64,000 nucleotides of DNA from Candidatus Rokuibacteriota bacterium (GTDB lineage: Bacteria > Methylomirabilota > Methylomirabilia > Rokubacteriales > CSP1-6): NCBI GenBank assembly GCA_003221615.1, contig QHSQ01000115.1, positions 16,305 to 80,304 of the forward strand, in the 5' to 3' direction. Below the pieces are notes generated by a model. The model worked only from the letters and a program-made list of their open reading frames with translations, did no database searches and was not told the DNA's origin. This document shows positions 9,026 through 13,098 of this stretch, piece by piece (position 1 is the first letter of the stretch; each line of letters opens with the position of its first letter). Made by a program: the position numbers and the translations under genes.

Positions 9026-9075
9026 GCGCGCTGCAGGCCGTCGCGGGGCTGGGGCCCCGCCGGCCGAGGCGCGCC
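9026..9075. repeat. 50-bp hairpin repeat, copy 1
   Basis: GCGCGCTGCAGGCCGTCGCGGGGCTGGGGCCCCGCCGGCCGAGGCGCGCC; nested stems GCGCGC/GCGCGC, GGCCG/CGGCC, GCGGGGC/GCCCCGC. Confidence 0.95.
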
Positions 9076-9091
9076 CTTAAAGAAGAGAGAG

Positions 9092-9141
9092 GCGCGCTGC
9101 AGGCCGTCGCGGGGCTGGGGCCCCGCCGGCCGAGGCGCGCC
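9092..9141. repeat. 50-bp hairpin repeat, copy 2 (identical to copy 1)
   Basis: Perfect direct repeat of 9026..9075 with 66-bp periodicity. Confidence 0.95.
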
Positions 9142-9162
9142 TCGAAAAAAGAGGAGCAGCCG

Positions 9163-9708
9163 ATGAGCCTCGGTGGACGTGTCGCGCTGATAACCGGGGG
9201 CGCCCGCGGAATCGGGCTGGCGATCGCGCGGCGGCTCGTCGCCGACGGCGCCCGCGTCGCGCTCGTCGACCTGGACAAGTCGGCGGTCGAGGCGGCGACC
9301 AGCGAGATCGGCGCCTCGGCGATGGTTCTCGTCGCCGACGTCACGCGCACGGATGACGTGGAGCGCGCGGTCGCAGCGGCTCACGCGCGCTGGGGCCGGC
9401 TCGACATGGTCGTCAACAACGCCGGCATCACCGGAGGCTCGAAGCTCACCTGGGAGCTCACGGACGACGACTGGAACCGGGTCATCGCCTGCGACCTCAC
9501 GAGCGTCTTCCTGGTCGCGCGCGCGGCGGTGCGCCTCATGCTGCCTGCGCGGAGCGGCCGCATCATCAATATCGCGTCGATCGCCGGCAAGGAGGGCAAC
9601 CCGATGCCGGAAGAGGTCGCGGCGCTCGTCGCCTGGCTCGTCTCGGACGAGTGCACCTTCTCGACCGGCGCCGTCTACGACCTCTCGGGCGGCCGCGCGA
9701 CGTACTGA
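9163..9708 (+). pseudogene. SDR family protein with internal in-frame deletion removing the YxxxK active site
   Basis: TGGARGIG, NNAG and INIASIAGKEGNP joined directly to MPEEVAALVAWLVSDECTFSTGAVYDLSGG; 181 aa instead of about 250. Confidence 0.75.
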
Positions 9709-10473: not shown

Positions 10474-10715
10474 GTCGCATGCGGCTTCTTCCGATTCTCC
10501 TGTTCCTGATCGTCGCCGTCGCGCTGCTGCTGCCGCTCCTGCGCCGGATCCGGCTGCCCGCTCCCACGGCGCGCCGCACCTTCCCCGACGAGCTCGTCAA
10601 GGACCCGGTTTGTCAGACCTACGTCGTGAAGTCGCGGGCGGTCCGCCGCGCGGATGCCGGTCGGGTTCGATACTTCTGCAGCGAGCAGTGCGCCCGCCTC
10701 GACACCGGCGGCTGA
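10470..10715 (+). CDS. Small membrane-anchored YHS/TRASH-like metal-binding protein
   Basis: N-terminal hydrophobic helix, then DELVKDPVCQTYVVKSRAV...YFCSEQC. Confidence 0.65.
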   Translation: MSRMRLLPILLFLIVAVALLLPLLRRIRLPAPTARRTFPDELVKDPVCQTYVVKSRAVRRADAGRVRYFCSEQCARLDTGG

Positions 10716-10725
10716 CGCCCCGCGC

Positions 10726-11601
10726 GTGAGCCCTCGCAGCTCCCAACGGACGGCCGTCGCGGCGCGCCGCGCGCGCGCCTCGCGCCGGCATCCGGACCCG
10801 TGGCGCGATGCCGACGCCCAGACCAACGTCGATGAGATGGCGAGGAGCCTCGAGGCGCGGGGCCGAACGCCCGCTCAGGCACGGCTGCGGCGGCGCTTCC
10901 TGAAGTTCGTTCCCGTGGGTGCAGGCGAGCGGGTGCTCGAGGTCGGCTGCGGCACCGGCGTGGTCGTTCGCGACCTCGCCGCGCTCGTCGGTCCCCGAGG
11001 CGGGGTGGTGGGCATCGACGCGAGCCGGCGCCTGCTCGATCGGGCGCGAGCCTTGTGTCGCGAGACCGCGCGGCGCACCCCCATCGCGCTCCGCGTCGCC
11101 GACGCCGCCGGTCTCCCCTTCGCCGCGAATCGCTTCGACGCCGCGCTGGCGATCACGGTCATCCTCCACGTCGCCGAGCCACTGCGCGTCGTGCGCGAGA
11201 TGGCGCGGGTGACGCGGCCAGGCGGACGCGTCGGAGTGCAGGATCAGGACTTCGGCGTGGTCGCGGTCACGCACCCGGATCGGGCGCTGACCGAAGGGAT
11301 CATGCGCGGCGTGGCGGAGCGGGTGTACGAAGAGCCCCACAGCGGCCGCCGCCTCCCGGGCCTGCTTCGCGCCGCCGGTCTGGTGGACGTGCGCCTGCTG
11401 ACCGACGTCTACCAGGACACGACGCTCGAGCCGTGGACGAAGACGTTCCTCGAGCGCCGCGCCGAGCGGGCCGTGCGCTTCGGCATCGCGGACGTGTCCA
11501 CCGCCAAACGCTGGCTCGATGGTTTCACCGAGGTCGTCGCCGCCGACGCCTTCGTGCTGACCTTGAACTACTACGGCGCCGTCGGGACGAAGCCGGCATG
11601 A
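10726..11601 (+). CDS. Class I SAM-dependent methyltransferase
   Basis: VLEVGCGTGVVVRDLA, GIDASRRLL, FDAALAITVILHV; start codon uncertain. Confidence 0.85.
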   Translation: MSPRSSQRTAVAARRARASRRHPDPWRDADAQTNVDEMARSLEARGRTPAQARLRRRFLKFVPVGAGERVLEVGCGTGVVVRDLAALVGPRGGVVGIDASRRLLDRARALCRETARRTPIALRVADAAGLPFAANRFDAALAITVILHVAEPLRVVREMARVTRPGGRVGVQDQDFGVVAVTHPDRALTEGIMRGVAERVYEEPHSGRRLPGLLRAAGLVDVRLLTDVYQDTTLEPWTKTFLERRAERAVRFGIADVSTAKRWLDGFTEVVAADAFVLTLNYYGAVGTKPA

Positions 11602-12530
11602 ATCGGATGCCGATCGGTCTGACGCTCGTCGCGATCGTCCTGGCTGGGCTCCTGTCGGCGGGCGCTCTGGCGCCGCCGGCCGCGCAGGATCTGCGTCTGC
11701 CGCCGTCGTTCGACGGCGCCGCGGCCCTGCACCACGTCGAGCGGCTCGTCGCGATCGGCCCGCGCCCGGCCGGATCGACCGGCGCGGCGCGTGCTCGCTC
11801 GTATATCGTCGACGAGCTCAAGAGGGCTGGCGTCTCGGCCAAGGTCGAATCGTTCGACGCAGTGACGCCTCACGGTCGCCTGCCGATGGCGAATGTGCTC
11901 GCCGTGATCCCCGGACGCCGGCAAGACGTGATCCTGATCGCCGGACACTACGACACGAAGTGGTTTCGCGACATCTCGTTCGTGGGCGCGAACGACGGCG
12001 GCTCGAGCGCCGCGCTCCTGATCGAGCTGGCGCGCCGTCTGCGCGAGCGCCCGCGCGAGTACACGTACTGGGTCGCGTGGTTCGACGGCGAGGAAGCGCG
12101 TGAGAGCTGGACCGCGACCGACAGCCTCTACGGCTCACGGCGCATGGCGAGCGAGCTTGGGAAATCGCGGCGGCTTCCGAGCGCCGTGATCGTGGCCGAC
12201 ATGATCGGCGACCGTGACCTCGCCATCCGGCGCGAGTCCGGCTCGACGTCGTGGTTGACCGACGTCATCTGGGCGAGCGCCGCGAGGCTCGGCTACTCGA
12301 CGCATTTCCTGCAAGACTCGCTCGCCGTCGAGGACGATCACGCGCCGTTCATACGCCTGGGGATCCCGGCGACCTTGCTGATCGACTTCGATTTTCCGCC
12401 CTGGCACACGGCGGAGGACACGCTCGACAAGGTGTCGGCGAAGAGCCTCGAGATCGTGGGCAAGGTGATCCTCGACGCCCTCCCCGGGATCGAGGACGGC
12501 CTGAATCGCTCACGCGGCGGGCGGCTGTAG
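11598..12530 (+). CDS. M28 family metallopeptidase / glutaminyl-cyclase-like, secreted
   Basis: Signal-like N-terminus, AGHYDTK, GANDGGSSAAL, DGEEA, PWHTAEDTLD. Confidence 0.85.
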   Translation: MNRMPIGLTLVAIVLAGLLSAGALAPPAAQDLRLPPSFDGAAALHHVERLVAIGPRPAGSTGAARARSYIVDELKRAGVSAKVESFDAVTPHGRLPMANVLAVIPGRRQDVILIAGHYDTKWFRDISFVGANDGGSSAALLIELARRLRERPREYTYWVAWFDGEEARESWTATDSLYGSRRMASELGKSRRLPSAVIVADMIGDRDLAIRRESGSTSWLTDVIWASAARLGYSTHFLQDSLAVEDDHAPFIRLGIPATLLIDFDFPPWHTAEDTLDKVSAKSLEIVGKVILDALPGIEDGLNRSRGGRL

Positions 12531-12555: not shown

Positions 12556-13098
12556 ATGCCACGCGTGAGCGAGGTCGACGACCCCGGCGACGACCCTCTT
12601 CTCAAGGAAGCCTTCGCGAAGGAAACCGAAGCGTTCGGCTTCGTCCTGAACACGACGAAGATCCAGGCGCACACGCCCGGGATCATGCGGGCCGCCAAGC
12701 AGCTCTCGGCGGCCGTCGAGCGGTCAGGCCTCCTCGCCCCGCAGCTTCTGGCGTTGGTCTACCTGCGCGTCGCCCTGATCAACGGCTGCCCATTCTGAAT
12801 CGACATCAACGCATCCAGGGGGATGCGAGCGGGCGCGTCGGAGGCGAAGATCGCCGAGGTCACCACCGCCCTCACCAGCGATCTCTTCGACGAGAGCGAG
12901 AAGACGGCGCTCGAGTACGCGGAGGCGATCACCTTCACGGATCGCAAGGTCACCGAGGAGCTGTTCGCGCGGGTGCGCGCGCACTTCTCCGAAGCGCAAA
13001 TCGTCGAGCTCACGGCGGCCGTCGCGCTCGAGAACTTCCGCTCCAAGTTCAACGTGGCGCTCGGCATCGAGGCGCAGGGGTTCTGTCTCCTCACGTAG
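12556..13098 (+). CDS. AhpD/carboxymuconolactone decarboxylase-family protein, candidate selenoprotein (CPFU, UGA at 12796..12798)
   Basis: ORFs 12556..12798 and 12823..13098 share one frame; codons AAC GGC TGC CCA TTC TGA ATC GAC ATC AAC put TGA at the second Cys of CxxC; downstream stem-loop; TAG terminator. Confidence 0.82.
12810..12827 (+). promoter_or_regulatory. Putative bacterial SECIS element
   Basis: CGCATCC-AGGG-GGATGCG perfect 7-bp stem, G in loop, loop begins 18 nt after the UGA. Confidence 0.7.
13038..13093. repeat. Copy 1 of duplicated AhpD-like gene 3' end
   Basis: 51/56 nt identical to 15895..15950. Confidence 0.85.

Follow-up and report, generated by a model that had tools for sequence, protein, structure and literature searches.

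The TGA triplet at codon 81 of a gene for a CMD/AhpD-like redox protein is, judging from sequence comparisons, very probably read as selenocysteine (Sec), with a probability of about 0.96. The gene lies within the 64,000-nucleotide stretch of Candidatus Rokuibacteriota DNA that was analysed (the window). The protein belongs to the AhpD-like (COG2128/YciW-type, CxxU) selenoproteins, a kind published since 2008 and known from many bacteria; it adds a new member to this known kind and falls into a distinct sub-group. The gene, its upstream neighbours and its internal features are as follows.

10654..11601, + strand: SAM methyltransferase gene (PF08241, E 4e-21; synteny), overlapping the start of the M28 gene, likewise a conserved neighbour, and ending in an ordinary TGA stop
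11598..12530, + strand: M28-family peptidase gene, directly upstream (PF04389, E 7e-31; synteny), a conserved neighbour in Rokubacteria
12556..13098, + strand: predicted CMD/AhpD-like selenoprotein gene, 180 aa, one TGA read through, stop TAG at 13096-13098 (translation; PF02627, E 5e-13; layout shared by 86 distinct orthologues; purifying selection on both sides of the TGA)
12787..12789, + strand: codon of Cys78, which pairs with Sec81 in the CxxU motif (NGCPFU); invariant across the 38 aligned orthologues (38 of 38) and shared by the Cys homologues
12796..12798, + strand: in-frame TGA, codon 81, putative Sec (TGA in 86 of 86 distinct orthologues; Cys in distant homologues)
12810..12827, + strand: SECIS-like hairpin, 7-bp stem of 12810-12816 with 12821-12827, loop 12817-12820 (covariation and synonymous-codon constraint in orthologues)

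Translation of the window showed the frame from 12556 to 13098 to be interrupted by the TGA at 12796-12798 alone. The first-pass annotation had joined open reading frames 12556..12798 and 12823..13098 into one frame with a lone TGA, ending at TAG, and its read-through translation was recovered exactly as quoted. It had also placed the TGA at the second Cys of an NGCxFC motif, and in the Cys homologues codon 81 does correspond to the second Cys of the redox CxxC. A scan of the window for in-frame TGAs flanked by 25 or more open codons in each direction yielded 449 triplets, three of which were protein-like in codon-position composition on both sides. Only the TGA at 12796-12798 combined such two-sided composition with a stem of more than 5 bp, and no second convincing selenoprotein gene was found in this whole-window scan of in-frame TGAs. 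The combination of frame, TGA and hairpin is not due to chance, and the observation on the window gene can be regarded as settled because it is conserved across orthologues.

TGA occupied codon 81 in 110 of 110 orthologue loci, equivalent to 86 of 86 distinct genes, and Cys in none, with a locating pattern that would have taken Cys as well. The orthologues span Rokubacteria to Alpha- and Betaproteobacteria at ~55-90% identity and derive mostly from separate assemblies. A search of the order recovered the gene in most of 60 genomes and, among the matches listed, one TGA in each full-length close match. Furthermore, a query carrying Cys instead of Sec/TGA at codon 81 retrieved 80 loci from GTDB representatives, comprising Rokubacteria, Reyranella and other Alphaproteobacteria, and Betaproteobacteria. 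Cys was present at this position in six homologues of 30-37% identity (E. coli YnjA, Ilyobacter, Cupriavidus, Halocatena, Streptomyces and Plesiomonas) and, by alignment, in P. aeruginosa PA0269. The alignment of homologues at codon 81 that had been proposed as a check therefore returned TGA in close homologues and Cys in distant ones.

Among curated families the nearest was NF053654 (GroundWater_YciW, YciW-related (seleno)protein), with a near full-length match of 146.5 bits; all 38 aligned orthologues matched this model. Since the window copy falls below the NF053654 equivalog cut-off of 310 bits, the protein represents a related sub-group and not a member of NF053654. A paralogue on contig C583 of the source genome is nearer to the family (226.7 bits) but is still below the 310-bit cut-off. 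The peroxidase-related subfamily TIGR01926 was matched by 38 of 38 orthologues, with the window copy at 47.9 bits, under the cut-off of 81.8. AhpD-like CxxU selenoproteins of COG2128 have been described from marine metagenomes ('AhpD-like 1', PMC2398784), and an 'AhpD-like protein' selenoprotein is listed in reviews (PMC9312934, PMC13188914). The COG2128/TIGR01926 selenoproteins likewise have the CMD fold and CxxU with Sec at the second Cys position; the published COG2128 examples are mainly marine-metagenomic and were compared by description, their sequences being left unaligned. E. coli YnjA shares 33.9% identity, a CxxC in the same place and a C-terminal Cys with the window protein and also lacks the relay His, but has Cys in place of Sec. 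The debrominase Bmp8 (6OHI, 6OHJ) is similar in length and overall fold, whereas its identity is ~20%, it contains Cys only and its known substrate is different. A literature search returned nothing on YnjA with alkylhydroperoxidase, nor on Bmp8 with AhpD.

The CMD assignment is supported by a PF02627 match of 49.2 bits, against a gathering score of 23, and by a fold model (pLDDT 83.5) whose best matches were PA0269 and Bmp8. PA0269 (2IJC, 2O4D, 7XW1), an AhpD-like peroxidase, was the better geometric match, with 133-134 residues at 1.6-1.9 Å; it shares the fold, and its CxxC aligns with the CxxU, but it has Cys for Sec, a shorter N-terminus and its own Glu/Tyr/His relay, missing in the window protein. 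Weak thiol-dependent H2O2 reduction has been reported for PA0269, with a relay of Glu36, Cys48, Tyr50, Cys51 and His55 (PMC3141380). In the alignment these residues correspond to Ala66, Cys78, Phe80, Sec81 and Asn85, respectively. The redox pair of the AhpD type is present as CxxU (Cys78 and Sec81), whereas the AhpD proton relay (Glu, His/Tyr, His) is not, three of the five residues being replaced by A, F and N. The AhpD/CMD label originally given to the gene thus holds for the fold but not for the relay, and 'AhpD' is to be taken here as CMD/AhpD-like fold because the AhpD relay residues are largely missing. With the relay Glu, Tyr and His replaced, AhpD-type peroxidase chemistry is not established. 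The relay His is missing from YnjA-type Cys homologues as well, so its loss characterises the broader sub-group and does not result from Sec.

The window protein is most likely a selenol/thiol oxidoreductase. It would be an all-helical CMD/AhpD-like thiol oxidoreductase of 180 residues with the active site Cys78-Pro-Phe-Sec81, in which the codon-81 UGA is decoded by SelB and tRNA-Sec under the guidance of the hairpin beginning 11 nt downstream. Attack by a Sec81 selenolate and resolution by Cys78 seem somewhat better than an even bet; Sec81 would attack the substrate, probably a peroxide or other oxidant or electrophile, Cys78 would act as the resolving thiol through a selenenylsulfide intermediate, and a thiol donor would reduce the selenenylsulfide. 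A reading that departs from this one in function alone, with identical decoding, is that Sec is inserted into a specialised YnjA/YciW-type oxidoreductase acting on another substrate (e.g. dehalogenating or disulfide-reducing) and not into an AhpD-type peroxidase. This is a serious contender, falling a little short of even odds: Ala66, Phe80 and an invariant Asn85 stand in for Glu36, Tyr50 and His55 of PA0269, there is a third invariant Cys (Cys177), the debrominase Bmp8 is among the top fold matches, and by reading of the translation one Reyranella copy adjoins an alcohol dehydrogenase-like open reading frame. The better geometric match is, however, PA0269, with its weak thiol-dependent peroxidase activity, and it is established chemistry that a selenolate may not require a proton relay. 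Across the 38 aligned orthologues Asn85, His39, Glu159, Asn160 and Cys177 were invariant. More tentatively, and with the balance tilting against it, the orthologues may constitute a Sec-only clade of YnjA/YciW-type CMD proteins that is common to Rokubacteria, Reyranella-like and betaproteobacterial lineages, has no AhpD proton relay, carries out a reaction different from the classical peroxide reduction of AhpD, and has had its SECIS element relocated and rebuilt in two Rokubacteria loci (L046 and L047).

Returning to decoding of codon 81 as Sec, the TGA could in principle be a true stop, or an error of sequencing or assembly, so that what remains is a pseudogene or a pair of short proteins, the second starting at ATG 12823. 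The data do come from a metagenome-assembled genome (MAG), and this ATG is in frame 3' of the TGA. The reading is nevertheless very improbable, as the identical TGA is shared by 86 distinct orthologues, the majority of them from different assemblies, and most proteobacterial orthologues have Leu, Thr or others in place of Met90, the alternative start. Furthermore, dN/dS indicated purifying selection both upstream and downstream of the TGA, with values of 0.14-0.42 on the 3' side against eight orthologues. A pseudogene was rejected on the shared TGA and the selection on both halves.

The hairpin described in the first-pass annotation is present in full: CGCATCC (12810-12816), the loop AGGG (12817-12820) and GGATGCG (12821-12827), the stem starting 11 nt and the loop 18 nt past the TGA. 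In a scan of 1521 TGA triplets of the window, 0.8% were followed at the same offset by a perfect 7-bp Watson-Crick stem, rising to 6.8% with G-U pairs permitted. The folding energy of the window hairpin was unremarkable (z -1.31; 27 of 200 shuffles equally good), and the hairpin of the window copy is weak evidence when taken by itself. The distance from UGA to the loop G is, we presume, that of the essential loop G in the E. coli fdhF element; the U that we take to follow the fdhF-type loop G is a G in the window copy.

Comparison across orthologues was more informative. Rokubacteria carry the stem GCATCC/GGATGC with loop CGUG, CGGG or AGGG, and Proteobacteria carry UUCCGUC/GACGGAA, UUCCAGC/GCUGGAA and variants with loop CGUGU or CGUGC. 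Pairing amounted to 97.6% in Proteobacteria, with two-sided changes in 5 of 7 pairs, and to 93.5% in Rokubacteria and allies, with two-sided changes in 2 of 7; the covariation score was reached by 0 of 500 shuffles in either case. In both groups the pairing percentage and covariation score exceeded those of all shuffles and of slid registers, a positive outcome for the covariation check suggested earlier. Synonymous-codon constraint was concentrated in the stem and loop. In Rokubacteria the hairpin used GCA for Ala in 34 of 34 (5.2 bits), TCC in 34 of 34 and GGG in 34 of 34, and CGC was never used for Arg (0 times); in Proteobacteria TCC made up 43 of 44 Ser codons and CGT was used in 45 of 45. 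The aligned sequences indicate that the hairpin is conserved with compensatory changes and synonymous constraint, which are not visible from energy alone. An Rfam search found no family above thresholds at the hairpin, and this is not counted against it because bacterial SECIS elements are highly variable. The displaced hairpins of L046 and L047 lie further downstream and form a 9-bp or 6-bp stem with loop GGUCU; hairpins of this rebuilt type were also present in L071 and L073.

A profile search of the source genome, a MAG of 7.24 Mb in 596 contigs (96.5% complete, 8.6% contamination) whose relatives are Rokubacteria MAGs, located selA, selB, selC and selD, the machinery that the annotation had proposed searching for. 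Contig C263 encodes selA (586.7 bits), selB (377.4 bits) and tRNA-Sec (selC; 69.8 bits, 94 nt, anticodon read as TCA), all within 5 kb. The selD gene (333.7 bits, contig C106) has its own in-frame TGA (SCAGUASK) followed by its own hairpin. This SelD, recorded as locus L019, is therefore a predicted selenoprotein in its own right. Given the 8.6% contamination, assignment of the sel genes to this MAG depends on their composition and on relatedness. Tetranucleotide correlations of the sel stretches with the window were 0.955 and 0.966, compared with 0.958-0.974 for quarter-window chunks and 0.857-0.891 for proteobacterial controls. Of the 59 genomes in the relatives search, source genome included, 58 had SelA, as did 42 of 42 of good quality, and SelA identity dropped with decreasing kinship. 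The sel genes most likely belong to the source organism, since their composition matches the window and SelA is widespread in relatives. In addition, tRNA-Sec scored above the Rfam cut-off in 14 of 14 tested proteobacterial genomes holding the gene. The earlier proposal that the UGA is decoded as Sec is accordingly supported by orthologue TGAs, Cys homologues, covariation and sel genes. All the computational checks suggested with it gave positive results, and neither a lack of Sec machinery nor a lack of homologues with Cys or Sec at codon 81, two of the findings named as refuting it, was encountered.

Genome-wide reassignment of TGA to a sense residue without Sec (a table 4 or 25-like code) has nothing in its favour beyond the in-frame TGA itself and is excluded, because TGA ends window genes (methyltransferase, sarcosine dehydrogenase-like, SDR, MFS, ABC and B12-binding) and is the own terminator of 40 of 110 orthologue loci, and just five CMD genes of the source genome have an in-frame TGA. 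Four of these lie outside the window, on contigs C583, C102, C225 and C47 (L141, L142, L143); the C102 copy reads SAYU, its first Cys being replaced by Ser.

In dozens of genomes of Rokubacteria and Reyranella, ordinary gene calling would split or truncate this gene, and a conserved redox enzyme would escape notice. The orthologues together offer clean SECIS covariation data and a Sec-only clade in which to ask why Sec is retained. The window gene is also consistent with a Methylomirabilota MAG for which 63 predicted selenoprotein genes are reported (PMC13188914).

The methyltransferase and M28 peptidase genes usually precede the gene in Rokubacteria, and the peptidase gene is possibly co-transcribed with it; this context says little on function because it is lost in more distant holders. 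Elsewhere in the window, an SDR-family gene (9163-9708) apparently misses ~65 internal residues, its relatives matching in two pieces, and a GC-rich 66-bp unit is repeated 1.9 times at 93% identity between two genes (9026-9153).
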